Shown piece by piece: positions 24,159-41,078 of a stretch of DNA of 64,000 nt (its first letter is position 1; each line of letters begins with the position of its first letter). The notes under the pieces were generated by a model that ran no database searches, was not told the DNA's origin, and was given only the letters and a program-made list of their open reading frames with translations. Made by a program: the position numbers and the translations under genes. The stretch spans positions 2,096,836-2,160,835 of the forward strand of contig NZ_CP028858.1 in NCBI RefSeq assembly GCF_003058365.1. Reading direction: 5' to 3'. Source of the DNA: Halococcoides cellulosivorans. Lineage in GTDB: Archaea; Halobacteriota; Halobacteria; Halobacteriales; Haloarculaceae.

Positions 24159-24166
24159 AATATTTA
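24159..24166 (+). promoter_or_regulatory. TATA box of the ABC importer operon
   Basis: AATATTTA is centred 36 bases before the ATG at 24199, predicting a transcript start about ten bases ahead of that codon. The in-frame ATG at 24166 overlaps the box and so cannot be the start from this promoter. Confidence 0.6.
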
Positions 24167-24198
24167 TGACGGTGGAGAGCGCACCTTCGGCCTGTACA

Positions 24199-26022
24199 AT
24201 GGTTAACGACCAGTCATCAGACGGATTCAGTGACGTGATCGACCGTCGTAACTTCGCAAAGATCGCCGGTGCGTCCGGCGTGGCCATGCTGGCGGGGTGT
24301 GACGGTGACGGACAGGAAGAGACGCCCACCGAGAGTGGCGAGGAGACGTCCGACGATGGGGGCGACGAACAGGACGTCTACGACGTGACCGTCGACGGGG
24401 CGGCCGCACTGGATATGGGCACGCTCCACTGGAACCCCGCGTTCATCGCGTGGCCGAACATCTGGGGCCGCTGGATGACCCACGAGCGTCTCGCCCAGTA
24501 TAACCTCCAGACCCAGGAGTGGATCCCGCGGCTGATCGAAGAGTGGAGCACCGACGGCGACACCTTCACAGTGCAGATCCGCGACGACGCCAACTGGGCC
24601 AGCGGTGACCCGATCACCTCCGAGGACGTCAAAACTCACATCCTCTGTTCGATGGCCGCCGGCGGCCCGCTCGGCAACATCGTCGACTCGTTCGACACAT
24701 CCGACGAGAAGACGCTCGTGATCACGGGGACGGGCGACGTCAACCCGAAGATCTTCGAGTTCAACGTCCTCTCGAACCTGCTCCAGTCGAAGAACGCCGA
24801 GCCGTACGCGGACTGGGCGACCCGATACTGGGAAGACGGCGACGAGGACGTCGGGTCGGAGATCACGAGTTACAAGCCGGACGAACCGGACTACATCTCG
24901 GGGGCGATGAGCTTCGTCGAGATGACCGACCAGTACTACCTGCTGGAGCGCAACACCGAGCACTTCAACGCCGACAACATCAACTTCAAGGAGTATCAGT
25001 TCACGGCGTCGCCCGGCAACCAGTCCAAGTGGCGCGCGATGCAGAACAACGAGTTCGACACGGTGATGAGCGTCTTCACGCCGTCTCGGATCGTTGCCGA
25101 CCTCGACAAGAGCTGGAACGAGTACCAGTTCCCCGGTTACTGGGGCTTCGGTCTCCTGTTCAACCACGACGCCGAGAACGCACCGCACGTCAGCAAAAAC
25201 ACGGTCCGAAAGGCCATCGCCAACGCCGTCAGCCGGCAGGCCTGTGCCGACAACGCCGGTCCGCGCGTGAAGAATCCGGCGCCGACCCCCGCCGCCATCG
25301 CGTCGAACGTCCAGGACCAGTGGATCGACGTCGGTGGGACGTTCAGCGAGATGCAGGACGCAGAGCAGGTCGCCCCCCTGATGGAAGAGGCGGGCTACTC
25401 GAAGAACAACAACGACGTCTGGGAGCACCCCGACGATGGTGAGGCCACCATCGAGGTCATCTCCCCGCAGGGCTGGAGTGACTGGGAGGTCATGGCCAAC
25501 ACCGTCGGCCAGCAGCTCCGCTCGGCCGGTTTCGACGCCAACGTGAACCTCATCGGCAACGGCACGATCGTTGGCGAGCGGATCCCGAACGGGGACTTCC
25601 AGATCGCCGGCCGCGCGTGGCTGCCTGGCAACGCACGGTCGTCGTACCCGTTCTTCCCGCTCCGCCACGTTCTGGGCGACTCCTTCGACAACGCCCAGGC
25701 GTACCCCGGCTGGGAAGAAGAGAACCAGCCCGTCGAAGTGCCCGCCATGGATGGCTCGGGCACGATGGAAGTCGACGTCCGCGCGACCCTGGACGAGATC
25801 GCGTCCTCTGCGGACGAAGACGCCAACGCGGAGAAGATCACGGAGCTCGCGTGGGTCACCCACCAGGAACTGCCGTGGCTGCCGATCGTGACCAAGAAAG
25901 AGCAGTCGATGATCAACACGCAGAACCTGAGCGCGCCCGCCGGGGACGCCGAGCAGGCGCAGCTCAAGTGGCCCTGCATGTACCTGCCGAAGATCGGCGA
26001 CATGCAGTGGAAAGGCGAATAG
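24199..26022 (+). CDS. ABC transporter substrate-binding lipoprotein, family 5
   Basis: A 607-residue extracellular binding protein of the peptide/oligosaccharide (SBP_bac_5) family. The signal is of the Tat lipoprotein type: '[20 protein letters not shown]' with twin arginines, then AGC, the lipobox, at about residue 34. A short acidic linker ([19 protein letters not shown]) leads to the binding domain, with the family pattern '[20 protein letters not shown]' followed by '[12 protein letters not shown]'. In archaea and Thermotoga this family binds both peptides and cello- or manno-oligosaccharides. The position ahead of PL1, GH2 and GH5 genes makes an oligosaccharide the better guess. Permease and ATPase genes follow. 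Confidence 0.9.
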
Positions 26023-26069
26023 ACGTCACGACCGAACCGTAGTTTTCAAAAGCGTACGTTCGTAACTTC

Positions 26070-26074
26070 GGAGG
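26070..26074 (+). promoter_or_regulatory. Shine-Dalgarno GGAGG before the first permease gene
   Basis: GGAGG lies 8 bases before the ATG at 26083. A TTTTCAAAAG just upstream (26043-26052) could be a second, internal promoter within the 60-base gap after the binding-protein gene. Confidence 0.5.
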
Positions 26075-26082
26075 AATACCCG

Positions 26083-27126
26083 ATGGTAAACTACTACATC
26101 AAACGGACGGGGAAAGCCGCCCTCACGGCGTATATCGTGATGACAATATCGTTCGGGTTGTCACGAATGTTGCCGGGGAATCCGCTCGCCTCTATCGAGG
26201 GGAGGTTGCGGGGGGCCGGGCTCACCGAACAACAGGTACAGACAGCATTAGCACCCTACAAAGAGACCATCCCGACGGGGACACTACTCGAACAGTACGT
26301 CCAGTACATGTCGACGCTCCTGACGGGTAACCTGGGGAAGACCGTCGCGTACAAGGTCTCGACCGACCCGTCGACGGGGGAGATCGGCGGTGTCTCGGTC
26401 GCCGGGCTGATCGGGAAGTACATGCCGTGGACGATCTTCATCGGCGTGACGGCGATCATCATCTTCTACGCGCTCTCACTCACGCTGGGATCGATCATGG
26501 CCTACTACGAAGGCTCGAACTTCGACACGGCGAACTCACTGGTCGCGATGCTCGCGAGTGGGCTCCCCTTCTTCGTGACGGGGATCGTGCTGATCTGGCT
26601 GTTCGCCGGTATCTTCAACGTGTTGCCGGCCGGGGGGAAGTTTGCAGCCTCACAGGAGATCAGACCGGGGTTCAATCTCCCCTTCATCCAGAGTGCGCTC
26701 TATCACTCGATCTTGCCGATCGCGGCGACCGTCATCGGCCGATACGGGGTGCGAGCTCTGGCGATGCGTGGTAACAGCATCTCGATTCTGGGCAAAGGCT
26801 ACGTGCAGGTCGCCCAACTGCGTGGCCTCCCCGACCGGATCATCGCACTCAGATACGTCGGCCGGAACGCGGTCCTGCCGATGTACACCGGCATGCTGCT
26901 CTCCTTTGGCTGGATTATCGGCGGGACCGTCGTTCTGGAGACCGTGTTCAACTACCAGGGGCTCGGGTGGCTACTCTTGGTGGCGCTGGACGCCAAGGAC
27001 TATCCACTCCTGATGGCGATCTTCCTGGTGCTCACGCTGGCACTGGTCGTCGGAATCTACCTCGCAGACCTGTCGTACGGACTCGTCGACCCACGAATCA
27101 CCACGGGTGAGAAAGATGCCTACTGA
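26083..27126 (+). CDS. ABC transporter permease, DppB type
   Basis: A 347-residue integral membrane subunit of a family 5 importer. Six hydrophobic segments are visible, starting with 'AALTAYIVMTISFGLSRMLP' near residue 10 and followed by the family's 'GNPLASIEG' loop. The cytoplasmic EAA-like loop is in 'RALAMRGNSISILGKGYVQV' and 'AQLRGLPDRIIALRYVGRNA', which docks onto the ATPase. The C-terminal 'VLETVFNYQGLGWLLLVALD' is also typical. Its end overlaps the start of the next permease gene by eleven bases. It would form the translocation channel together with the DppC-like subunit. Confidence 0.93.
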   Translation: MVNYYIKRTGKAALTAYIVMTISFGLSRMLPGNPLASIEGRLRGAGLTEQQVQTALAPYKETIPTGTLLEQYVQYMSTLLTGNLGKTVAYKVSTDPSTGEIGGVSVAGLIGKYMPWTIFIGVTAIIIFYALSLTLGSIMAYYEGSNFDTANSLVAMLASGLPFFVTGIVLIWLFAGIFNVLPAGGKFAASQEIRPGFNLPFIQSALYHSILPIAATVIGRYGVRALAMRGNSISILGKGYVQVAQLRGLPDRIIALRYVGRNAVLPMYTGMLLSFGWIIGGTVVLETVFNYQGLGWLLLVALDAKDYPLLMAIFLVLTLALVVGIYLADLSYGLVDPRITTGEKDAY

Positions 27127-28225
27127 CGACGAATCGAGCGGCCTCGACTGGGGCTACGAAGAGGGATCGGTGGAAATGACCCTGGGGGACCGCCTCAGAG
27201 AACGGTATCGCGATCACATCTACGAGCCTGGCGTGGTGGCCCTCGACGACTGGCGATTCGTCGTCGGAGGCCTCATCGTCCTGGTGTACTTCGTGGTCGG
27301 AATCGTCGGGCCGTTCTTGGTCTCGGATCCGGTGGGCAGTCAGTACGCCAATCCCACCTTTTTCAGCCCGATCAAGTGGGTATCGGTGCTCACGATCGGT
27401 GGGCTCGACATCGCCTACCCGACGTTTCGTGACCTCGCGATGCCGCTGGGGACGAACACGTACGGCCAGTCGATCTTCGGGCTGATCATCCACGCGACGC
27501 CGAAGATGCTGGTCATGCTGCTCACCGGTGGTGTCTTCGCGACGATCATGGCGACCCTTCTCGGGACGGTCTCGGGGTACAAGGGTGGGGCCTGGGACTC
27601 CGCGATCACGATGTTCAACGACGTCGCGATGACGATCCCCGGCCTGCCGCTGGTGATCGTCATCGGGCTGGCCGCCAGACCCTACCTCGAAACCCTTCGT
27701 GACCTGCCCGAACCGCTCAATCTGCTCTCGCCGGCCGTGATCGGCATGATCATCATGATCAACTACTGGGGCGGGCTCTCGCGTGCGATCCGCTCACAGG
27801 TCCTGACGCTCCGTGACGCCGAGTACGCCGAGGCCTCCCGGACGATGGGCGTCGGCGCACCGAGCATCATCCTGAAGGACGTGCTGCCGAATCTGATGCC
27901 GTACATTCTGGTGAACTTCGTCAACGCGGCGCGGTTCGTGATCTTCTCGGCAGTCGGGCTCTACTACCTGGGTGTCCTCCCCGCCAACCAGGCGAACTGG
28001 GGGATGATGATCAACAACGCCCAGAACCAGGGAGCACTCATCGGCGGACTCGGTCAGTGGTACCGGGTCTTGCCGCCGGTGATGGCCGTCCTGGGCATCG
28101 CACTGGGGCTCATCCTGTTCTCCCAGGGCATGGACCGACTGTTCAACCCCCGCGTGCGCACGAAACTGGCGTCGTTCGACGAGAGCGATGACGACGACAG
28201 CGTCGAGGATGTGATGAACGAATGA
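27116..28225 (+). CDS. ABC transporter permease, DppC type
   Basis: A 369-residue membrane subunit, partner of the DppB-like permease. The N-terminal cytoplasmic extension (about 45 residues) leads to helix 1 'FVVGGLIVLVYFVVGIVGPF'. The core shows 'MPLGTNTYGQSIFGLIIHAT', a DppC hallmark (GTD.GRD.-like), and the EAA loop 'SQVLTLRDAEYAEASRTMGV', then GAPSIILKDVLPN. I take the ATG at 27116 rather than an in-frame GTG nine bases earlier, because GGTGA sits at a usable distance before it. The stop overlaps the ATPase start (ATGA). Confidence 0.92.
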   Translation: MPTDDESSGLDWGYEEGSVEMTLGDRLRERYRDHIYEPGVVALDDWRFVVGGLIVLVYFVVGIVGPFLVSDPVGSQYANPTFFSPIKWVSVLTIGGLDIAYPTFRDLAMPLGTNTYGQSIFGLIIHATPKMLVMLLTGGVFATIMATLLGTVSGYKGGAWDSAITMFNDVAMTIPGLPLVIVIGLAARPYLETLRDLPEPLNLLSPAVIGMIIMINYWGGLSRAIRSQVLTLRDAEYAEASRTMGVGAPSIILKDVLPNLMPYILVNFVNAARFVIFSAVGLYYLGVLPANQANWGMMINNAQNQGALIGGLGQWYRVLPPVMAVLGIALGLILFSQGMDRLFNPRVRTKLASFDESDDDDSVEDVMNE

Positions 28226-30462
28226 GTGTCGACGACTGGGAAACCAAGACTCCGGCGGAGGTACAGGAAGTCGAAAAAGTCGAGAAGCCCGACCCGATCA
28301 TGCGGCTCGACGACGTTCGGGTCACCTTCGAGATGGACCGCGGGATCTCGCGGGTCATCGACGACGTGAGCTTCGACGTCGGTCGCAGCGAGATCGTCGG
28401 CATCGTCGGAGAGAGCGGTGCGGGCAAGTCCACGCTGGTCTCGGCGATGATGGACTCGGTCGAAGAGCCCGGCGTCCTCGAAGGCACCATCGAGTACCGA
28501 CCAAAACAGGGCGACCCGGTGGACATCCTGGAGTTCAACAAAGAACAGCTCCGACAGTGGCGCTGGGAGGAAGTCGCGATGGTCTTCCAGGGGGCGATGA
28601 GTTCGTTCAACCCCGTCAAGCGGATCGAAGACCACTTCGTCGAGACGCTGAAGGCCCACGGCCACACCGTCAGCGAAGGGATGGAGCGCGCTCGCGACCT
28701 GATCGCGGACCTGTACATGGACCCCGATCGGGTGATGGGTGCCTATCCCCACGAACTCAGCGGCGGCATGCGCCAGCGCACGCTCTTGGCGCTCGCGATG
28801 GTGCTCGAACCCGAGATGCTCCTGATGGACGAGCCGACCGCAGCGCTCGACCTCCTGATGCAGCAGTCGATTCTGATGTTGCTCCAGGATCTCCAGGAGG
28901 AGTACGACGTCTCGATGGTGTTCATCACCCACGACCTCGCGCTGGTGGCCTCACTGGCCGACCGGCTCGCGGTGATGTACGCCTTCCGGATGGCCGAGGT
29001 CGGCCCGAAAAAGAAGATGCTGTCGAATCCGGGGCATCCGTACACCAGGATGTTGCTGAACTCGACACCGGACATCGACGCCCCGATCGACCAGAACCGG
29101 TCGATCGAGGGGTCGGCGCCGGACCCACTGGACATGCCGTCGGGCTGTCCGTACCATCCGCGGTGTCCGCTGGCCGAACAGCAGTGTGTCGAGGCCAAGC
29201 CCGACCAGTTCCTGCTGGCCGACGACCACGGCGCGGCGTGTTTCCGCTGGGAAGAGGCCCAGGAGTCGATGCCGCTCAACTACGAGAAAAGCGACGCCGA
29301 CACCACCAGAGTGGAGGACTACGACTACAGCGATATCACCGCCGCGAGCGGTGAGCCGCTGATCTCGACGAACGACCTGGAAGTCCACTTCGAGCAAAAC
29401 CAGGGCCTGATCCAGACGCTGTTCGGTCCCGATCCGGAGCTCGTCCGGGCCGTCGACGGGATCAACCTCGACATTCACGAGCGCGACGTCGTCGCACTCG
29501 TCGGGGAATCGGGCTGTGGGAAGACCACCTTCGGGAAGACCGTGCTGGGCCTCCAGAAGCCGACCGGCGGAACGATCGAGTTCCGCGGGACGGACATCTG
29601 GGAAGCCCGACGCGGTAACGCCGACATCCCCTGGGAGGAGATCCGGAAATCCCTCCAGATCATCCACCAGGACCCCGGGAGTTCGCTCAATCCGAATCGG
29701 CGGCTGAAGAAGATCCTCTCCGTCCCGCTCAAACAGACCTACCCGTCGATGCCGTCGAGCGAGCGGCTGAGCCGAATCTACTCACTGCTCGAACACGTCG
29801 GGCTGACGCCGCCCGAGGAGTACGGCGAACGGTATCCCCACCAGCTCAGCGGCGGCGAGAAACAGCGCGTCGCGCTCTGTCGGGCACTGCTGATGAATCC
29901 CGACCTGATCCTGGCAGACGAAGCGATCAGCGCGCTCGACGTCTCCTTGCGCGTCGAGATGATGGAGCTGATGCTCGAACTGCAAGAGGAGTTCGACACG
30001 TCCTATCTGTTCATCTCCCACGACCTCTCGAACGCCCGATACCTCTCACAGGAAGCGGGCGGGCGGATCGCGGCGATGTATCTGGGTGAGATCATCGAGA
30101 TCGGGCCGGCCGAGGCGATGACCCAGAACCCCGCCCATCCGTACACCGAGGTGCTCCGATGGGGGACGCCGAACATCGACCCCGAAAAGGCGGGCGTCGG
30201 AGACATGCCGATGCGGAAGATCGACATTCCGGACCCGGTGAACCCCCCGAGTGGCTGTCGGTTCCACACCCGGTGTCCGGAGGCCCGTGAGTACTGCAAG
30301 CAAGAGAAACCCGAACCGCAGGCGATCGATCCGGAGGGGATCCACCGGTCGAGTTGCTTCCGGGACTACGGCGACGATCACCCGTACTGGGACAGTGCCG
30401 TGCTCGAAGACGAGGAAGCGGCCAGCGACTTCGATTCGGGTGCCGGCGTCGACGCCGACTGA
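28222..30462 (+). CDS. Fused double ATP-binding subunit of the family 5 importer (DppD-DppF)
   Basis: A 746-residue cytoplasmic protein that joins the two ATPases usually encoded separately. First domain: Walker A 'GESGAGKST' (about residue 65), signature 'ELSGGMRQR', Walker B 'LLMDEPTA'. Second domain: Walker A 'GESGCGKTT' (about 430), signature 'QLSGGEKQR', Walker B 'ILADEAIS'. Each half ends in the oligopeptide-transporter tail with cysteines, 'GCPYHPRCPLAEQQC' and 'GCRFHTRCPEAREYC', a possible Fe-S or zinc site. Note that the second Walker B reads DEAIS instead of the usual DEPVS. It overlaps the permease gene by four bases and closes the importer operon. Confidence 0.94.
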   Translation: MSVDDWETKTPAEVQEVEKVEKPDPIMRLDDVRVTFEMDRGISRVIDDVSFDVGRSEIVGIVGESGAGKSTLVSAMMDSVEEPGVLEGTIEYRPKQGDPVDILEFNKEQLRQWRWEEVAMVFQGAMSSFNPVKRIEDHFVETLKAHGHTVSEGMERARDLIADLYMDPDRVMGAYPHELSGGMRQRTLLALAMVLEPEMLLMDEPTAALDLLMQQSILMLLQDLQEEYDVSMVFITHDLALVASLADRLAVMYAFRMAEVGPKKKMLSNPGHPYTRMLLNSTPDIDAPIDQNRSIEGSAPDPLDMPSGCPYHPRCPLAEQQCVEAKPDQFLLADDHGAACFRWEEAQESMPLNYEKSDADTTRVEDYDYSDITAASGEPLISTNDLEVHFEQNQGLIQTLFGPDPELVRAVDGINLDIHERDVVALVGESGCGKTTFGKTVLGLQKPTGGTIEFRGTDIWEARRGNADIPWEEIRKSLQIIHQDPGSSLNPNRRLKKILSVPLKQTYPSMPSSERLSRIYSLLEHVGLTPPEEYGERYPHQLSGGEKQRVALCRALLMNPDLILADEAISALDVSLRVEMMELMLELQEEFDTSYLFISHDLSNARYLSQEAGGRIAAMYLGEIIEIGPAEAMTQNPAHPYTEVLRWGTPNIDPEKAGVGDMPMRKIDIPDPVNPPSGCRFHTRCPEAREYCKQEKPEPQAIDPEGIHRSSCFRDYGDDHPYWDSAVLEDEEAASDFDSGAGVDAD

Positions 30463-31873: not shown

Positions 31874-34800
31874 ATGCGCGAGGGGACCAACGGATCGACG
31901 GACCGTGTTCGTAGACGAACATTCATGAAGGCGCTCGGGAGCGGTGCGGTGCTGGGCGCTGCCGGACTGGTCGGGACGGCAAGCGCCGTCACGACCGCGA
32001 CGATTCGGCCGAGCGACGGGTTCGCGACGGTGGCCCCGTGGCTGGAATCGTCGGATCCGGACGTGTATCGGATTCAGAACGCCACGCGATCGGAGGTCGA
32101 GGCGGCGTTTACGGCGTCGGGCCCGCGGGTCGTCGTCTTCGAGACGTCGGGGGTTATCGATCTCGGCGGCCAGGAACTCGAAATTACCGAAGACAACTGT
32201 TGGGTCGCCGGGCAGACCGCCCCGTCACCGGGGATTACGTTCATCAAAGGACAGATCCAGGTGGCGGCGAACGACTGTGTCGTCCAGCACATCCGGACGC
32301 GTCACGGCCCAGGCGCGGACGGGTCGATCCAGAGCAACGACTCGATCAACACCGCCGACGGAACGCAAAACAACGTCCTCGACCACGTGACGGCCTCGTG
32401 GGGGACCGACGAGTGTCTCTCCGTGGGTTACGACACTCAGGACACGACCGTCACCAACTGCCTGGTGTACGAGGGGCTGTGGGACCCCTACGGCGACGGG
32501 TCGGACCACAACTACGCGACGCTGGTCGGCAACGGGGCCTCCAACGTCACGCTGGCCGGCAACATCTGGGCGAAAGCCCGGTCTCGCCTCCCGCGACTGA
32601 AAGACGACACGTCCTCGGCGCTGTCGAACAACCTGATGTACTTCTTCAACGAATCGGTGAAAATGGACGGCGGGACTACCTCTTCTATCGTCGGCAACGT
32701 GCTCATCCCGCAAGACATCGACGACACCGCGATCGAGGGTGGCAACGCCTACCTCGAAGACAACGTCACCGACCCGACCTCGACGCCGCTGACGGGCGGC
32801 GTCACCGAGTTGAGTTCGCGGCCGCTGTGGCCGTCGGGGCTCGAATCGATGCCCTCGGGATCGGTCGAGGAGCACAACCTCAACAACGCGGGCGCCCGGC
32901 CGGCCGACCGGACCTCGAACGACGCCCGGATCGTTCAGGAGATTCGCGAGCGCCAGGGTGACGACTACCTCGATTCGCCGCGAGACTACTGGATTCCACA
33001 CCCGGACGCCGTCGGCGGCTATCCCGACCTGCCCGAGAACAGCCACTCACTCGACGTCCCGAACACGGGCCTGCGCGAGTGGTTGGCGCAGTGGTCCGCC
33101 GAGGTCGAGACTGGCGGATCGACCGGCGGGGACTACATCGCGCCGACGACACCCGGGAGCCTCACGGCCGAGGCCACCCAGACGAGTGTCGATCTGTCAT
33201 GGGGCGCGTCATCGGACTCCGATACCGGCCTCGCGGAGTACCGCGTGACCGTCGACGGCACAGAACAGGTCCTCGACCCGGGGACCACGTCGCTGACGGT
33301 CGACGAACTCGACTCCGGAACCTACTACCAGGCATCGGTGATCGCCGTCGACGGCGCGGGCAACCAGTCCGCCGCGGCGACGACGAGTTTCCAGACCGAG
33401 TATCCCGAGGGTGAAGCGCCCGACGACACGCGTGGCTCACACTTCCTCGCTGAGGACGGGTTTGCCGACACCGCGTGGTTCGACGACTCCGTCGAGGTCA
33501 TCAAAATCTCCGAACTGGCGTACGAACCGATCCAGGCGGCGTTCGAGGCCAGCGGGCCACGCCTGATCGTCTTCGAGGAGAGTGGCGTCCTCGACCTGCA
33601 GAATCAGACCCTGGAGATCACCAGTCCGAACTGCTATGTCGCCGGGCAGAGCGCGCCCTCGCCGGGCGTGACCTTCATCAACGGCTTCCTCCAGGTCGCG
33701 GCCAGCGACGTCGTCGTCGAACACATCCGCGTGTTCCGTGGCGACGAGTCGGGCGGCGAGGGGACCGACCCGATGAACAGTGCGGACGGCACGCAGAACG
33801 TCATCTTCAACCACTGTACGGCGTTCTGGGGCCGCGACGAGAACCTCTCGGTCGGCTACGACTCCGATCGGACGACGCTGGCGAACTGCATGATCGCAGA
33901 AGGGCTCGAAGACCCCGAGGAGAACTCCAACGGGACGCTCGTGGGCAACGGCGCCTCGGACGTCGCGATCATGGGGACGATCTACGCGAAGAACAACGAT
34001 CGCAACCCCCGGCTGAAGGAGAACAGCGAGACGGCGATCGTCAACAACCTCAACTTCTATCACGACAAGGCGACCTGGATCGATCCGGGCGCGAGTGCGG
34101 CCATCGTAGGGACGGCGTACATCCACCGCTTTAGCTTCCGCGACCCGCTCGTCTTCGGGGAGGGGAGCGTCTACTTCGACGACAACTACGTGGCCGATCC
34201 GCCGCTCGATGGCCGGCCGTTCCAGGACGTCGGCACCGAACTCGACACGCCGCCGCTCTGGCCGAACGGACTCGACGCGATGGCGTCCGCCCAGACCGAG
34301 GCGCACAACCTGGCGAACGCGGGCGCGCGCCCGGCCGACCGCATCGGCCAGGAGGCAAAGATCGTCCAGCAGATCGAGGATCGGTGGGGCAGTCTGGACG
34401 TCGATCCGAACCGGGACAACGCCGGCTTCTCCGATATCCCGGACAGCGTCGAAGAAGCCGGCGGGTATCCCGACCACGACGGGACGACGCGCGAACTGAC
34501 CGTCCCCGAGGCCGGCCTCCGGCAGTGGATCGATCAGTTGGCCAGCGAGGTCGAACCCGACGACTGGGGCGACGGGGCCGGCGGTGACGACAAAGCGCCG
34601 ACCGAACCCGGCGACATGACGGTCGTGGACAGCGGTCTCGCCTCGATCACCGTGAGTTGGTCCGCATCGACCGACTCCGGTGGTGCGGGCCTCTGGCGGT
34701 ACAACCTCTCGGTCGACGGCCAACAGCGGACATCCGTCGAACCCGGGACGACCGAGGCGACGATCAGCGGGCTCGACGAGGACACCAGCTACGAGATCGG

Positions 34801-35683
34801 CGTCAGCGCCGTCGACGGCGCGGGCAACGAGTCGAGCGCGGCGACGGTCACGGCCACGACCGAGAGTGCGGACGCCGACAAGACCGGTGGGCGTGGCCCG
34901 ATCACCGTCAGCGGCGCGGGCGAAGACATCTGGAACAGTAGCGACGAGGGCCACCTCTACTACGGGGCGGCGAGCGGTGACTTCGACATCGCGGTGCGTG
35001 TCGACAGCATCGAAAACACCGACGAGTTCGCCAAAGCCGGGCTGATGGTCCGCGAGTCGACCGCGGCCGACGCCGCGAACGTGATGGTGCGACGGATGCC
35101 CGACGCCACCTCGGTACAGTGGCGCTCGTCGGCGGGCGCGTCCACCGCGAGCACGACGAGTTCCGAAGGCGAGGGCGAGAGCGAGATATCGGGCGGGACG
35201 ACTCAGATGGCCTGGCAACGCCTGGTCCGCTCGGGCGACACCATTCGGGCGTACGTCTCCGAGAACGGCCAGGAGTGGACGCTGTTTGCCGACCTCTCGG
35301 TCGGCCTGGGCGATGAGGTCGTCGCGGGCCTCGCGGTGACCAGCCACAGCACGGGCACGCTCTGTGCCGCCGAATTCTCCTCGTTCTCGGGCGTGACACT
35401 GTCGAGCAACGACGACCTCGGCAGTGTCGACACGAGCGGGTCGGTCGACGCCCCGGAGGACTCAGGGCCCGGACCGATCGACGGGCGGACGCCGACCGAT
35501 CCGGACGGCGACGGCCTCTACGAGGACGTCAACGGCGACGGAGAGTTCAACTTCCCCGACATCAACACGCTCTTCCAGAACACGGACTCGGCGGCGGTCC
35601 AGAGCGACGCCCCGTTCTACGACTTCAGCGACGACGGGGCGGTCGACCTCCAGGACGTCCTGGCGCTGTTCGAGACGATCTGA
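31874..35683 (+). CDS. Secreted two-domain pectate lyase (PL1) with FN3 and dockerin-like domains
   Basis: A 1269-residue exported protein. Tat signal 'DRVRRRTFMKALGSGAVLGA' ends near residue 38. First PL1 beta-helix, about 40-415: 'CWVAGQTAPSPGITFIKGQI', 'NNVLDHVTASWGTDECLSVG', 'ARSRLPRLK'. FN3, about 420-510. Second PL1 helix, about 515-895, repeats the same motifs ('CYVAGQSAPSPGVTFINGFL', 'NHCTAFWGRDENLSVGYDSD', 'NNDRNPRLK'). Second FN3, about 905-997; a concanavalin-like DUF1349 region, about 1005-1177 ('EFAKAGLMVRESTAADAANV'); then two dockerin-like calcium loops, about 1206-1269 (DVNGDGEFNFPD, DFSDDGAVDLQD). It should cut pectate by beta-elimination outside the cell. The start at 31874 is the most probable; in-frame ATGs at 31844 and 31859 are alternatives. 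Confidence 0.88.
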   Translation: MREGTNGSTDRVRRRTFMKALGSGAVLGAAGLVGTASAVTTATIRPSDGFATVAPWLESSDPDVYRIQNATRSEVEAAFTASGPRVVVFETSGVIDLGGQELEITEDNCWVAGQTAPSPGITFIKGQIQVAANDCVVQHIRTRHGPGADGSIQSNDSINTADGTQNNVLDHVTASWGTDECLSVGYDTQDTTVTNCLVYEGLWDPYGDGSDHNYATLVGNGASNVTLAGNIWAKARSRLPRLKDDTSSALSNNLMYFFNESVKMDGGTTSSIVGNVLIPQDIDDTAIEGGNAYLEDNVTDPTSTPLTGGVTELSSRPLWPSGLESMPSGSVEEHNLNNAGARPADRTSNDARIVQEIRERQGDDYLDSPRDYWIPHPDAVGGYPDLPENSHSLDVPNTGLREWLAQWSAEVETGGSTGGDYIAPTTPGSLTAEATQTSVDLSWGASSDSDTGLAEYRVTVDGTEQVLDPGTTSLTVDELDSGTYYQASVIAVDGAGNQSAAATTSFQTEYPEGEAPDDTRGSHFLAEDGFADTAWFDDSVEVIKISELAYEPIQAAFEASGPRLIVFEESGVLDLQNQTLEITSPNCYVAGQSAPSPGVTFINGFLQVAASDVVVEHIRVFRGDESGGEGTDPMNSADGTQNVIFNHCTAFWGRDENLSVGYDSDRTTLANCMIAEGLEDPEENSNGTLVGNGASDVAIMGTIYAKNNDRNPRLKENSETAIVNNLNFYHDKATWIDPGASAAIVGTAYIHRFSFRDPLVFGEGSVYFDDNYVADPPLDGRPFQDVGTELDTPPLWPNGLDAMASAQTEAHNLANAGARPADRIGQEAKIVQQIEDRWGSLDVDPNRDNAGFSDIPDSVEEAGGYPDHDGTTRELTVPEAGLRQWIDQLASEVEPDDWGDGAGGDDKAPTEPGDMTVVDSGLASITVSWSASTDSGGAGLWRYNLSVDGQQRTSVEPGTTEATISGLDEDTSYEIGVSAVDGAGNESSAATVTATTESADADKTGGRGPITVSGAGEDIWNSSDEGHLYYGAASGDFDIAVRVDSIENTDEFAKAGLMVRESTAADAANVMVRRMPDATSVQWRSSAGASTASTTSSEGEGESEISGGTTQMAWQRLVRSGDTIRAYVSENGQEWTLFADLSVGLGDEVVAGLAVTSHSTGTLCAAEFSSFSGVTLSSNDDLGSVDTSGSVDAPEDSGPGPIDGRTPTDPDGDGLYEDVNGDGEFNFPDINTLFQNTDSAAVQSDAPFYDFSDDGAVDLQDVLALFETI

Positions 35684-35783
35684 TCGCCCCCCGCCGTGTT
35701 CGGGCCCTCGCGTCCGGCATCGCCGGATCGTGGTCGGGAGTGCGACACGGCACTCGAGTCCACAGGCTGCTGGTACGCGCCCG

Positions 35784-35799
35784 CCGATCTAAGGATCGG
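35784..35799 (+). promoter_or_regulatory. Inverted repeat upstream of the beta-mannosidase gene
   Basis: CCGATC-TAAG-GATCGG, a six-base-pair inverted repeat about 50 bases ahead of the TATA box. ATACACCCGTAT follows at about 35822-35833 as a second, weaker one. These are candidate operators for sugar control; no regulator is named. Confidence 0.3.
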
Positions 35800-35847
35800 T
35801 GTCTGTGGCGCCTCTACCACCGATACACCCGTATTTTCGCCGGAACG

Positions 35848-35853
35848 CTTTTT
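35848..35853 (+). promoter_or_regulatory. TATA-like box of the beta-mannosidase gene
   Basis: CTTTTT centred 28 bases before the ATG at 35879, in keeping with a leaderless transcript and with that start codon. Confidence 0.55.
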
Positions 35854-35878
35854 GATCGCGGGGCCGTCGGCCCTCTGC

Positions 35879-38392
35879 ATGCGAACGACGACGCTGAGCG
35901 GCCAGTGGGAACTCCGAGCGGTCGGGACCGACGAGTGGCTGCCAGCCACCGTGCCAGGGGGCGTGTACAGCGACCTCCGCGCCGCCGGCGAGATTCCCGA
36001 CCCGTTCGTCGAGGACGCCGAATGCGACGTCCAGTGGGTCGCCCAGACCGACTGGGAGTACCGCCGGACGGTCACCGTCGACGACGCGTTCCTCGACCAC
36101 GAGCACGTCCTCGTGGCGTGTGAGGGCCTCGATACCGTCGCGACCCTGTGGGTCAACGGGATCGAGGTGGGGGCCACCGAGAACATGCACGTCGGCCAGG
36201 CGTTCCCGGTCGGCGATGCGCTGGACCCCGGCGAGAACGTGATCCGTGTGGTCTTCGAGTCGCCGGTCGAATACGCCGCCGAACGGGCCGCGGCCCACCC
36301 CTACGAGATTCCTCACACTCACTATCCGGTCGAACAGCCGGGCCGGCCGTTCGTTCGGAAAGCGCAGTGTCAGTTCGGCTGGGACTGGGGGCCCTGCCTC
36401 CCGACGATGGGCATCTATCGGGAGATCTCCCTGATCGCGCACTCGGCCCCGCGCATCGAGTACACGACGACCGACCAGGACCACGGAGACGACGGCGTCG
36501 AGCTGTCGGTCACGGTCGGCCTCGACGTCCCCGTCGCGGGCGAGTACACCGTCGGCGCGGCGGTCGCCGACGCGAGCACCCGCGAACGCGTCACACTCGA
36601 TTCGGGCCGACAGCGCGTCGCGGTGGCGCTCACCGTCGAGGATCCCGACCTGTGGTGGCCTCGTGGCTACGGCGATCAGCCACTGTCCGAGCTCTGGGTC
36701 GGCGTCGGCGAGGCCGACGGCGACACGACCCTCGACGAGGCCACGTCGACGATCGGGTTCCGCGAGGTCGACCTCCGCACAGACTCCGACGAGGTGGGTC
36801 GCTCCTTTCAGATCGTCGTCAACGGCACACCGATCTACGCGAAAGGCGCGAACACGGTTCCGATCGCGCCGCTGTACGCGGACGTGAGCGAATCGCGGTA
36901 CGACCACCTCCTGGAGAGTGCGGCGGCGGCGAACATGAACACCCTCCGGGTCTGGGGCGGCGGCTACTACGAGGCCGACTATTTTTACGAGCGGTGTGAC
37001 GAACTCGGCATCCTCGTCTGGCAGGACTTCATGTTCGCCTGTGCACTGTATCCCGCCGACGACGCGTTTCTCGACAGCGTCGAACGCGAGGTACGGTATC
37101 AGGTCCGACGGCTGGCCGATCACCCCTCGATCGCGCTGTGGTGTGCGAACAACGAGAACGAACAGGCGCTGTACGACTGGGCGGCCGACCACGACGCCCA
37201 CGAGGCCCACCTCGAAGACTACCGCCGACTGTACACCGAGACGGTCGAAGCCACCTGTCGCGAGGAAGACCCCTCGCGGCCCTACTGGCCGGGATCGCCG
37301 TCGAGCGGGCCCGACACATCGGACCCGTCGCTCGAAACCCACGGCGACGTCCACGCGTGGGACGTCTGGCACGAAAGCGCGCCGTTCGAGGCGTATCTCC
37401 AGACCGAGCCCAGATTCGTCTCGGAGTTCGGCTACCAGTCGTTTCCGTCGGTCGAGACGCTCCTGACGGTGCTCGACGAGGGAGATTGCAACCCGACCGC
37501 ACCGTTGATGGAACACCACCAGCGCAACCCCGGCGGGAACGAGCGGATCCTCACGCGACTGGCGAGCCAGTTCCGGATGCCCACCGCCTTCGAGGCGTTC
37601 GTCTACCTGTCGCAACTCCAGCAGGGCCTGGCGATGAAAACCGCGATCGAGCACTGGCGGCGGTGCAAGCCGACGACCTGGGGGGCGCTGTACTGGCAGT
37701 TGAACGACCTCTGGCCGGTCGCCTCCTGGGCCTCGATCGAGTACGACGGCCAGTGGAAAGCCCAGCAGTACATGGCCCGCCGGCAGTTCGCGCCCGTCCT
37801 CGTCAGTTTCGCGCCAACGCACGCCGACGAGGATGAGAACGACGAGGCCGGAGGCGCGGGCGCTGGCGCGATCACCGCCCAGACGCTCTGGATCACGAGC
37901 GACCGGCCAGACCCCATCGCGGGAACGGTCACCCTCGAAATTCTCGACATCCAGACCGGGACGGTCGCCCGCGAGGAGACCGTCGACGTCGACCTCGCGG
38001 CTCAGGAGAGCACCGCGCTGGTGACGATCGATCGCGACGACCTGAGCGTCGACCCCACGCGAGTCATGCTCCGGGCGACCTACGACGGGCCCGGCGACTC
38101 GTTCGCGAACGTCGCCGTTTTCGAACCGTACAAGCGCCTGGACCTGCCCGCCGCCGACGTGGAAACCGCCGTCGAGGGGCGGACGGTCACCGTCTCCACC
38201 GACGAGACCGCGCTGTTCGTCGCCGTCGATCCGGGACCGCTACGGGGATATTTCTCGGAGAACTACGTCCACCTCGCCGCGGGCGAATCCCGAACGCTCA
38301 CCTTCGAGTCGGCCGACGATCGGCGGACCGGACTGGTCGAACACCGCCTCGAATCGGACCTGTCGGTCACCCACCTCCGCGAGACGTACTGA
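35879..38392 (+). CDS. Beta-mannosidase, glycoside hydrolase family 2
   Basis: An 837-residue enzyme with no signal peptide, so it should act inside the cell on short oligosaccharides. It has the GH2 order: sugar-binding jelly roll ('SGQWELRAVGTDEWLPATVP', 'GGVYSDL'), immunoglobulin-like domain, TIM barrel, and C-terminal beta domains. The beta-mannosidase hallmarks are 'CQFGWDWGPCLPTMGIYREI', 'NTLRVWGGGYYEADYFYERC' and 'DELGILVWQDFMFACALYP'. The acid/base is in 'WCANNENE' (E426) and the nucleophile in 'FVSEFGYQSFPS' (E516). It would release mannose from beta-mannosides made by the secreted GH5 or from imported oligomers. Catalytic residues are intact and the length is typical. Confidence 0.93.
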   Translation: MRTTTLSGQWELRAVGTDEWLPATVPGGVYSDLRAAGEIPDPFVEDAECDVQWVAQTDWEYRRTVTVDDAFLDHEHVLVACEGLDTVATLWVNGIEVGATENMHVGQAFPVGDALDPGENVIRVVFESPVEYAAERAAAHPYEIPHTHYPVEQPGRPFVRKAQCQFGWDWGPCLPTMGIYREISLIAHSAPRIEYTTTDQDHGDDGVELSVTVGLDVPVAGEYTVGAAVADASTRERVTLDSGRQRVAVALTVEDPDLWWPRGYGDQPLSELWVGVGEADGDTTLDEATSTIGFREVDLRTDSDEVGRSFQIVVNGTPIYAKGANTVPIAPLYADVSESRYDHLLESAAAANMNTLRVWGGGYYEADYFYERCDELGILVWQDFMFACALYPADDAFLDSVEREVRYQVRRLADHPSIALWCANNENEQALYDWAADHDAHEAHLEDYRRLYTETVEATCREEDPSRPYWPGSPSSGPDTSDPSLETHGDVHAWDVWHESAPFEAYLQTEPRFVSEFGYQSFPSVETLLTVLDEGDCNPTAPLMEHHQRNPGGNERILTRLASQFRMPTAFEAFVYLSQLQQGLAMKTAIEHWRRCKPTTWGALYWQLNDLWPVASWASIEYDGQWKAQQYMARRQFAPVLVSFAPTHADEDENDEAGGAGAGAITAQTLWITSDRPDPIAGTVTLEILDIQTGTVAREETVDVDLAAQESTALVTIDRDDLSVDPTRVMLRATYDGPGDSFANVAVFEPYKRLDLPAADVETAVEGRTVTVSTDETALFVAVDPGPLRGYFSENYVHLAAGESRTLTFESADDRRTGLVEHRLESDLSVTHLRETY

Positions 38393-38495
38393 CCGTCACC
38401 GGTCCGCGAGCACAAACAATTACTTTCTTTCGGGACGAAGCTAGTGGAAGCGCCACGCGTTCGGCCGGGGTGGGGCCGGAGCAGACGACACAATC

Positions 38496-41078
38496 ATGAC
38501 AGAGCAACCATCGTCCGACACGGGGGAATCGACGGCACGATCGTACGCCTCGCGGCGTGACGTGCTGAAACTCACGGGGGCCGGGCTAGCGAGTGCGACC
38601 GCGCTCGGCACCATCGGCACGGCGAACGCCGCCGACAGCGGGATTCCGACGCCCTGGCTCGACCGAAAGGACAACACGATGGTCGATCCCACGGGCAGCG
38701 AGGTGATCCTCCGCGGGGTGAACATCCCCGATCCGAAACGACTGGATCACACCGTCCCGGCCCGCGGGAAAAACTGGGACCACATGATCACGCACGCGAC
38801 CGATCCCGAGCGGGACTGGTACGCCAACGTGATCCGGATCCCGGTGCATCCGGGCGACATCGCGGAACTCCCGCCGGTGCCGATCGCTGACGCCGATTTC
38901 CATCCACCGGTCGCGTTCGACGAAAGCGAGTTGCTCGACTACTGTGAGACGTACCTCGATCCGGTCGTCGAGTACTGCCGCGAGCGGTCGGTGTACTGTA
39001 TCGTCGATTACCATCGCCACTGGGGCGAGGGCGATCTGCCCTGGCACGACGACACTCTGAGCGAGGAGGTCCAGTTGTTCTGGTCGACCGTCGCGAAGCG
39101 GTACGCCGAGGACGCACACGTCCTGTTCGAGCTGTACAACGAACCGACGCTGCCCGCGATGTACATCGACGACTGGTACAACGCCAAATACGCCGGCGTC
39201 TGGCGACGCTGGAAGAAGACCGCCCAGCCCTGGGTGAACACGATCCGCGAGCACGCGCCCCGGAATCCGATCATCGTCGGGTCGCCCGGGTGGTCTGCGA
39301 TGCCCGAGGGCGCACAGATCGAGGAGTTCGACGGCGACAATCTGATGTACGCCTACCACATCTACGGTGGCCACGGACTGTCGACCGACGAGGGCTTCGA
39401 CAGCCGCGAGACCGAGGAGGGGACGAACTCGGTCTGGAAGGACGTGCCCCTCTTCATGACCGAGTTCGGGTGGGAACCCGGTCAGGACCGCTGGATCAGC
39501 GGCGAGACCGACGGGTTCGGCCGTGGCGTCTCCGAGTGGGCCGACGAGCGCCCGATCCACTGGACGGCGTGGTGTTTCGACATCACGTGGCTCCCATCGA
39601 TGTTCTCGCGGGCGTTCGTCGACGGCGACCCCGACGACTCGGTGGGCGACCCGTACTCTGGCGACATTCCACAGCTCTGTGAGGATCCACCCTGCGAGTG
39701 GAACCTGCTCGGCCGCGACGAGGGATCGTTCGAGGAGTACGCCGGGGAGTACATCCGCCAGTTCCTCGAAGACCGCAAGGACGACGACGTGCCGACGATC
39801 GATCACGACGACCAGCCCCCCGCCGCGCCCGAGACCGTGACCGTCGAGTCGGTCGGGAGTGATTCTGCCGAGATTTCCTGGCCTGCGGTGACCGACACCG
39901 GGAGCTCCGGTCTCGACCACTACGATATTACCCTCGACGGCGAGGCGTGGCCGTACGTCCGCAGTGGGAGCGAGACGACCGCGACCGTCGACAATCTCAT
40001 CGCCGGGACGACCCACGAGATCGGCGTCCGCGCGGTCGACACCTACGGCAACGTCGGCGAGACCGCGACCGTCACCGTCGAGACCCAGGCCGGGGACACC
40101 GACCCCGTCGGCCCGCCGCGCGACCTTCAGTTGTCCGATCGGACCCACCGGTCGGTGGAACTGACCTGGAGTTCCGCCGAGGGCGACGCCGCGCGCTATG
40201 TCATCACCGTCGACGGCGAGGAGTACGATCGCATCCCCGCGCCGATGTCGCCCATCCTGCCGAGTTACCGGCTCGACGATCTCGCGCTCGACAGCGAACA
40301 CACCGTCGATATCGCGACGATCGGGCGCGGAGGCGACCGCTCGGAGCCCGTCACCGCGACGGTCCGACCGCAACCCGCCCACGCGACGGATCGCGACGTG
40401 CTGATCAACGACTACGAGGGCAGCGAGCCGCTGACGAACAACGCGCTCGGCGGGTGGGTCGGTGGCGGCATCGTCACCGGCGTCGACAACGGGATCGCCC
40501 AGGTCGACTGGGACTCGATCAGCTACCACGGGACGACTGCCGACCTCGACGCGAGTGAGACACCACTCCTGAAAGTCAAGGCGCGCGGCGAGATGGGGTA
40601 CGAGCTGAGTTCGCTCGCTCTCTCCGTCGAAGGCAGCCTCGACAAAGAGCCCGTCGGGGACATTACGGACGACCGAATCGACACCGACTGGTCGGTCGTG
40701 ACGATCGATCTGGAGGCTGCGGGCGCGGGCCTCGACCCCCTCGGACAGCTCCAGTTCGACACCGTCTGGGGGACCGCCGGCGCCTTCGAGATGGACGAAC
40801 TCTGGCTCGCCGCACCGGACGACCCCAGCGGCGGGATCGACACCGATGCGACCGCGCCGAGTCTCGACCCGATCGACGGGACCGTCCCCCGGGACATCGA
40901 CGGCGACGGCGTCCACGAGGACCTCTCTGGGGACGGGACGCTGAACTTCCCCGACGTGAACCGATTGTTCCAGCACACCGACGACCCCGCCGTCCAGGAT
41001 CACGTGTCGGCCTACGACTTCACCGGCGACGGCCTCGTCGACCAGCAGGACGTGCTCGCGCTGTTCGAGATGGTCTGA
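38496..41078 (+). CDS. Secreted glycoside hydrolase family 5 enzyme with FN3 and dockerin-like domains
   Basis: An 860-residue exported enzyme. Tat signal 'SYASRRDVLKLTGAGLASAT' ends near residue 46. The GH5 catalytic barrel spans about 50-425: 'VILRGVNIPDPKRLD', acid/base in 'LFELYNEPTLP' (E216) and nucleophile in 'FMTEFGWE' (E323). Two FN3 domains follow (about 443-531 and 538-625), then a beta-sandwich resembling a carbohydrate-binding module (about 633-773, 'DVLINDYEGSEPLTNNALGG'), and two dockerin-like loops at the end (DLSGDGTLNFPD, DFTGDGLVDQQD). GH5 includes cellulases and mannanases; the neighbouring beta-mannosidase favours mannan, but the subfamily is not decided by what I can see. 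Upstream, CAATTACTTTC near 38417 may be the TATA element, giving a leader of about 50 bases. Confidence 0.9.
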   Translation: MTEQPSSDTGESTARSYASRRDVLKLTGAGLASATALGTIGTANAADSGIPTPWLDRKDNTMVDPTGSEVILRGVNIPDPKRLDHTVPARGKNWDHMITHATDPERDWYANVIRIPVHPGDIAELPPVPIADADFHPPVAFDESELLDYCETYLDPVVEYCRERSVYCIVDYHRHWGEGDLPWHDDTLSEEVQLFWSTVAKRYAEDAHVLFELYNEPTLPAMYIDDWYNAKYAGVWRRWKKTAQPWVNTIREHAPRNPIIVGSPGWSAMPEGAQIEEFDGDNLMYAYHIYGGHGLSTDEGFDSRETEEGTNSVWKDVPLFMTEFGWEPGQDRWISGETDGFGRGVSEWADERPIHWTAWCFDITWLPSMFSRAFVDGDPDDSVGDPYSGDIPQLCEDPPCEWNLLGRDEGSFEEYAGEYIRQFLEDRKDDDVPTIDHDDQPPAAPETVTVESVGSDSAEISWPAVTDTGSSGLDHYDITLDGEAWPYVRSGSETTATVDNLIAGTTHEIGVRAVDTYGNVGETATVTVETQAGDTDPVGPPRDLQLSDRTHRSVELTWSSAEGDAARYVITVDGEEYDRIPAPMSPILPSYRLDDLALDSEHTVDIATIGRGGDRSEPVTATVRPQPAHATDRDVLINDYEGSEPLTNNALGGWVGGGIVTGVDNGIAQVDWDSISYHGTTADLDASETPLLKVKARGEMGYELSSLALSVEGSLDKEPVGDITDDRIDTDWSVVTIDLEAAGAGLDPLGQLQFDTVWGTAGAFEMDELWLAAPDDPSGGIDTDATAPSLDPIDGTVPRDIDGDGVHEDLSGDGTLNFPDVNRLFQHTDDPAVQDHVSAYDFTGDGLVDQQDVLALFEMV

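Follow-up and report, generated by a model that had tools for sequence, protein, structure and literature searches.

Textbooks present cellulosomes as machines of anaerobic bacteria. The clostridial cellulosome, of the Clostridium thermocellum CipA/OlpB type, comprises many dockerin-tailed polysaccharide enzymes, multi-cohesin proteins and surface-anchored cohesins, and each of these elements, with the cohesin and dockerin folds themselves, has a counterpart in the haloarchaeon Halococcoides cellulosivorans analyzed here. Unlike the hosts of bacterial cellulosomes, this organism is aerobic and extremely halophilic; its dockerin proteins are exported mostly through Tat, and its divergent type of cohesin falls below detection by Pfam. 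In place of the SLH domains of the bacterial systems the haloarchaeal anchors are of the PGF-CTERM or transmembrane (TM) type, and the haloarchaeal module has a third DxDGDG motif ahead of the dockerin that the bacterial cellulosomes do not have. The number of cohesins per protein is 2 to 5 or more, compared with about nine in a bacterial cellulosome, and to our knowledge no haloarchaeal physical complex has been reported.

Archaeal cohesin-dockerin pairs are present in Archaeoglobus fulgidus and in the ANME archaea, and in this respect the haloarchaeal system resembles them. Citing older work, one study described archaea with cohesin or dockerin domains as being without large multi-cohesin scaffoldins, and then reported the ANME cases, where proteins have up to 5 cohesins together with a dockerin (PMC9012536). 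Unlike the situation in H. cellulosivorans, the cohesin-dockerin proteins of A. fulgidus and ANME are not associated with polysaccharide enzymes in large numbers. By analogy, the plan of the H. cellulosivorans system is closest to that of the clostridial cellulosome, while its kin would be the archaeal cohesin-dockerin proteins of Archaeoglobus and ANME.

The same kind of module occurs on GH26 and other haloarchaeal enzymes of Natronoglomus mannanivorans described as having 'dockerin type I' domains, where it was read as substrate-binding with no mention of a cohesin partner (PMC10963439). H. cellulosivorans HArcel1 is a cellulose specialist (PMC10267330). The cellulase activity of HArcel on insoluble cellulose is solely cell-associated, the cells adhere firmly to fibres, and they lose little sugar to the medium (PMC4569967). 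How haloarchaea retain cellulases on their cells has been stated to be almost unknown (PMC10267330). Dockerins go unmentioned in the main text of that comparative genomics paper, and we found no description of an archaeal cellulosome in the open-access literature that we searched, paywalled work being outside its scope.

The window, the whole stretch of 64,000 nucleotides that was analyzed, occupies positions 2096836-2160835 of the single-contig H. cellulosivorans HArcel1 genome of 2,723,120 bases. Two of its genes encode exported enzymes with matching C-terminal modules, and these are laid out as follows, in window positions.

31874..35683, + strand: Tat-exported tandem pectate-lyase-like (PL1) protein of 1269 aa, with two PL1/PelZ-like regions, two FN3, a DUF1349 and a C-terminal dockerin
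34604..34846, + strand: second FN3 of the PL1 protein (residues 911-991; Pfam fn3)
34916..35389, + strand: DUF1349 beta-sandwich of the PL1 protein (residues 1015-1172), between FN3 and dockerin (Pfam, 33.1 bits against a cut-off of 32.4)
35486..35680, + strand: C-terminal dockerin module of the PL1 protein (module-profile matches; Dockerin_1 sub-threshold)
35525..35560, + strand: calcium loop 1 of the PL1 dockerin, DVNGDGEFNFPD (read in the sequence)
35621..35656, + strand: calcium loop 2 of the PL1 dockerin, DFSDDGAVDLQD (read in the sequence)
35816..38392, + strand: GH2 beta-mannosidase-like enzyme without a dockerin, between the PL1 and GH5 genes (Pfam)
38496..41078, + strand: Tat-exported GH5 cellulase-family enzyme of 860 aa, with two FN3 and a C-terminal dockerin
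39825..40079, + strand: first FN3 of the GH5 protein (residues 444-528; Pfam fn3)
40881..41075, + strand: C-terminal dockerin module of the GH5 protein, structure predicted (module-profile matches, AlphaFold, structural matches)
40920..40955, + strand: calcium loop 1 of the GH5 dockerin, DLSGDGTLNFPD (read in the sequence)
41016..41051, + strand: calcium loop 2 of the GH5 dockerin, DFTGDGLVDQQD (read in the sequence)

The PL1 protein matches the NCBIfam PelZ model with 341.6 bits, under the equivalog cut-off, and Pectate_lyase_4 only below threshold. Upstream of the enzymes, at window positions 24166-30462, lies an oligopeptide-type ABC transporter with a family 5 solute-binding protein, two permeases and fused ATPases; it is possible that this is an oligosaccharide importer.

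Both the PL1 and the GH5 protein have Tat signals, and in both the extreme C-terminus is occupied by a module that contains two EF-hand loops of 12 residues. Identity between the two modules is 60%. A preliminary description of the window had proposed that these enzymes end in dockerin-like modules with two calcium loops each, and this held, the loops lying where it had placed them. Its statement that similar FN3 modules join the dockerins to the enzymes held only in part. FN3 domains are present in both proteins, yet neither adjoins the dockerin, because the DUF1349 domain intervenes in the PL1 protein, and about 170 residues comprising an unassigned domain and a linker follow the second FN3 in the GH5 protein. 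Its observation that the window contains no cohesin was borne out in searches with both Pfam and a profile of the divergent cohesin described below.

With the whole window proteins the Pfam Dockerin_1 model gives 17.3 and 18.4 bits, below the cut-off of 22.9, and a sequence search of the PDB with the dockerin profile ranked calmodulins and other EF-hand proteins first. An AlphaFold model of the GH5 module has pLDDT values of about 95-98 across the module, with helices at 48-56 and 80-89. When this model was used in a structural search with VIA every row returned was a dockerin, the top match being 2vn5_D (Z 6.3, 2.1 Å over 52 residues); Foldseek with the same model gave no significant E-value (0.8). 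The preliminary description had named a prediction without a two-helix calcium fold as a possible refutation, and the outcome favored a dockerin. With about 60 residues, two EF-hand-type calcium loops and a helix after each, the module meets the criterion for Dockerin type I. The C-terminal modules of the window enzymes are dockerins; that they bind cohesin in a calcium-dependent manner is inferred.

These two modules are members of a large set. The Dockerin type I profile reaches its Pfam cut-off at 48 places in the H. cellulosivorans genome. There are 69 Dockerin_1 matches, made up of 67 of one module type, one ordinary dockerin and one false match, and a broader module profile adds three copies to the 67, giving a total of about 70. 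The module is C-terminal in 67 of these, ending a few residues from the stop codon and typically with ..DVLALFExV. Since there are some 70 copies, nearly all ending in this manner at the carboxyl terminus, the recurrence of the C-terminal module is not due to chance. Three modules lie near the N-terminus (G000:C1 139721, 192326 and 1050748), and one of them precedes a PKD and a GH18-like region.

At least 42 recognizable polysaccharide enzymes carry the module. They include GH5 (22), GH10 (5), GH9 (3), GH43 (2) and carbohydrate esterases (2), with single examples of GH11, GH16, GH26, GH3, PL1-like, PL11 and PL14, and others. The carriers are mostly cellulases, xylanases, mannanases and pectinases, and the module is also found on PQQ-propeller proteins. 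Tat-like signals are present in 63 of 67 dockerin proteins. Almost no dockerin enzyme has another anchor (in all but three the module is the C-terminal end), and lipoprotein anchoring of these enzymes was considered and rejected, with a lipobox in 1 of 67. The dockerin genes are clustered, with starts less than 5 kb apart in 27 of 69 neighboring pairs where 8 would be expected. In the dockerins on non-cohesin proteins Phe-Pro occupies loop positions 10-11 in 55 of 60, Asn14 is present in 60 of 60 and Gln18 in 57 of 60, despite a mean column identity of only 65% in the non-redundant set. Loop positions 10-11 set specificity in bacterial dockerins.

Pfam finds only two cohesins in the H. cellulosivorans genome, adjacent to each other at 2197182 and 2197811. 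The first of these genes (L066:8720-10863 for the pair) encodes a beta-helix protein with an ordinary cohesin and an ordinary dockerin, and the second a small membrane-anchored cohesin; they appear to be a separate pair. A sub-threshold cohesin match just upstream of one dockerin exposed a further, divergent domain, which precedes the module in several H. cellulosivorans proteins and in dozens of haloarchaeal proteins from GTDB genomes. Pfam applied to single sequences of this domain gives sub-threshold matches or none, and a sequence search of the PDB with the divergent-cohesin profile gave nothing significant. As profile searches of the PDB returned no significant cohesin for this domain and ranked EF-hands first for the dockerin, fold comparison was required.

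Compared by hhalign with a profile of the Pfam-type haloarchaeal cohesins, the divergent domain aligns with a probability of 96.7% and E = 4.6e-10. A natural Haloarcula amylolytica protein in which the domain is fused to the module was modeled in AlphaFold using 40 aligned sequences, with a pLDDT of 91.5. Foldseek with this model places cohesins on top (E = 1e-11), and in VIA cohesins fill nearly all 50 rows, the best being CaCohA2 (Z 16.7, 2.0 Å over 130 residues). The A. fulgidus cohesin 2xdh is also among the best matches in VIA (Z 16.2). The modeled cohesin is a relative that shares about 30% identity with the domain in one of the H. cellulosivorans proteins (L039, below). From the profile homology and the structural matches we conclude that the divergent domain is a cohesin that has been overlooked by current family models. 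Its homology to cohesins is demonstrated by the profile comparison; the jelly-roll fold is a prediction of the model.

The H. cellulosivorans genome contains at least 15 divergent cohesin domains by profile search, none of them in the window. In one Tat protein (L039) a beta-sandwich-like region at the N-terminus is followed by three cohesins and a divergent dockerin, an arrangement like that of a bacterial primary scaffoldin, in which the C-terminal dockerin is unlike those of the enzymes. Indeed, at every specificity position the dockerin of L039 differs from the enzyme dockerins. Its N-terminal region is not named by Pfam and contains no recognized CBM. A second Tat protein with three cohesins (L196:4440-6596) adjoins a membrane-anchored protein with one cohesin and a TM segment (L196:1684-4422). 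GH9 and GH3 dockerin enzymes neighbor these two genes (G000:C1:2055371-2066100), and the C-terminal tail of the three-cohesin protein, ..KGDYLIGDISLEDAVTVMRAYFF, is unusual and could be a degenerate half of a dockerin. A 1672-aa protein with two cohesins (L197) and a 332-aa protein with one (L198) each have a PGF-CTERM-like end, the PGF-CTERM matches being sub-threshold in both. Cohesins together with a dockerin are found on GLUG proteins (L071 and L074), and divergent cohesins are also present on some small proteins. The genome encodes archaeosortase A, the enzyme that processes PGF-CTERM proteins. Dockerins outnumber detected cohesins by about 4 to 1. The proximity of cohesin-only genes to dockerin genes is of borderline significance (P 0.06).

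Related architectures are found in other haloarchaea. A protein in genome G264 (L203) has a layout like that of L039, but with five cohesins and a dockerin, and its gene also neighbors dockerin genes. In G103, which has 47 modules, a GH5 cellulase is followed by at least five cohesins before truncation by the end of the contig (L214), and nearby (L214 and L204) are dockerin-bearing GH5, GH9 and GH18 genes and a gene for a small anchored cohesin. Proteins with three or two cohesins together with FN3, CBM5/12-like and PKD domains lie within runs of dockerin genes in G061 and G076 (L215 and L211, the CBM5/12 matches being sub-threshold in both), as does a three-cohesin protein with a dockerin in G208 (L212/L213). 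Across 292 Halobacteria genomes, 119 have both the module and the divergent cohesin, 15 have one alone and 15 the other, and 143 have neither. Counted by genus the numbers are 42 with both, 3 and 4 with one, and 28 with neither. Fusion to the module in cis is common for haloarchaeal cohesin-like domains, as in a PhoX-like secreted protein with a C-terminal cohesin and dockerin, and part of the co-occurrence is therefore that of a single fused gene. In at least 49 genomes, however, a separate small cohesin gene directly adjoins the gene for this secreted cohesin-dockerin protein. Two of these small neighbors were read, and each carries a signal and, at the C-terminus, a membrane anchor.

We propose that the roughly 70 dockerin-tagged proteins, both window enzymes included, would be exported mostly through Tat, after which the C-terminal dockerin, with two calcium-loaded EF-hand loops and their helices, would plug into a divergent cohesin. 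The receiving cohesins would be partly on lipid- or membrane-anchored surface proteins and partly on multi-cohesin proteins, for which a divergent dockerin of their own may serve as the tether. Such an arrangement would keep polysaccharide enzymes at the cell surface, some of them in multi-enzyme complexes. The gene content, the modular architecture, the predicted folds, the homology of the divergent domain to cohesins, the co-occurrence and the gene neighborhood are all shown here. We consider it likely that they reflect a cohesin-dockerin system with which an aerobic haloarchaeon keeps its polysaccharide enzymes at the cell surface, and that the plan of this system is cellulosome-like; binding, pairing and multi-enzyme complexes are inferred. 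If dockerin enzymes are held on surface cohesins this would explain the cell-bound cellulase activity, the firm attachment to fibres and the small leakage of sugar.

In its gene content the system meets the criteria for a cellulosome of many dockerin-bearing polysaccharide enzymes and of scaffoldins with several cohesins, although a physical complex is inferred. As to a carbohydrate-binding module on the scaffoldin, a further cellulosome feature, the observations are an N-terminal region in L039 that Pfam leaves unnamed and sub-threshold CBM5/12 matches in L211 and L215. For the attachment of scaffolds through anchored cohesins, the anchored cohesin proteins and archaeosortase A are present and the PGF-CTERM matches are sub-threshold; the pairing is again inferred. 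A bolder reading is that this is an archaeal cellulosome, in which the divergent cohesin attaches dozens of cellulases, xylanases, mannanases and pectinases, exported by Tat, to surface-anchored scaffolds, and that several haloarchaeal genera have related systems with two to five or more cohesins on each protein. We favor this reading only by a narrow margin. The preliminary description had called for a genome-wide search for further copies of the module and for cohesins or scaffolds. Both searches were positive: the modules are mostly on polysaccharide enzymes, and the divergent cohesins, all outside the window, are on multi-cohesin and surface-anchored proteins. Its suggestion that the enzymes are gathered on the cell surface or on a scaffold, as an archaeal counterpart of a cellulosome, is supported, with the binding of dockerin to cohesin remaining an inference.

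Other explanations can be envisaged. One that remains possible is one-to-one surface display, with each dockerin enzyme tethered singly to an anchored cohesin and the multi-cohesin proteins playing a minor part. In its favor there are numerous single-cohesin proteins that have a stalk and are anchored by a TM or PGF-CTERM-like end, and the pair of a secreted cohesin-dockerin protein and one small neighboring cohesin gene in 49 genomes, from which it follows that such a pair may be the ancestral form. Against it, proteins with three, five or more cohesins occur in dockerin-rich genomes, inside enzyme clusters. We regard it as unlikely that the partners of the enzyme dockerins are the two ordinary Pfam-type cohesins and not the divergent type. 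That two-gene locus does exist, and its second protein is membrane-anchored, but the ordinary dockerin of the first protein is the more obvious partner. Moreover, for the Pfam cohesin 66 genomes have both domains and 68 the module without it, a looser association than the 119 against 15 for the divergent cohesin. The Pfam cohesin as sole partner was rejected, there being only two in the genome and a loose association across the 292 genomes.

A substrate-binding or stabilizing calcium domain without a cohesin partner is a reading that we find very hard to sustain. Substrate binding has been proposed in print for haloarchaeal enzymes (PMC10963439, PMC13260240), and two genomes of one genus (G078 and G088) have 7 and 5 modules with no detectable cohesin of either type. 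Yet the module has a dockerin fold with Asn, Gln and Phe-Pro conserved beyond the calcium ligands, it shows tight co-occurrence and operon linkage with a cohesin-fold domain, and the same module is found on cellulases, pectinases and PQQ-propeller proteins despite their unlike substrates. As 67 of some 70 copies end no more than a few residues from the C-terminus, the module could also be taken for a secretion or sorting signal that is cleaved or enzymatically attached. This can be all but ruled out, because the carriers already have Tat or Sec signals and three copies lie near the N-terminus ahead of other domains; the module is, besides, a folded calcium domain.

The cohesin-dockerin reading would provide a concrete mechanism for cell-bound haloarchaeal cellulases, and with it a divergent type of cohesin missed by domain databases. 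It changes the interpretation of the haloarchaeal 'dockerin type I' domains now described in papers as substrate-binding, and it offers candidate salt-stable cohesin-dockerin pairs for practical use.

The module is also present in contigs labeled Thermoproteaceae, where it occurs with the divergent cohesin, and Methanoregulaceae (L159 and L161), which could reflect either a true spread or a binning error. Clusters of ordinary Pfam-type cohesins occur in two genomes of one genus (L205 and L206, G042:C1:467501-492000; L207, G207:C1:76001-96000), which have 8 and 15 Dockerin_1 matches, respectively. They include a protein of 2089 aa that carries 14 cohesins and has a PGF-CTERM-like end, with ordinary-dockerin proteins alongside. 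Judged from sequence alone, these would be a second kind of archaeal multi-cohesin protein.
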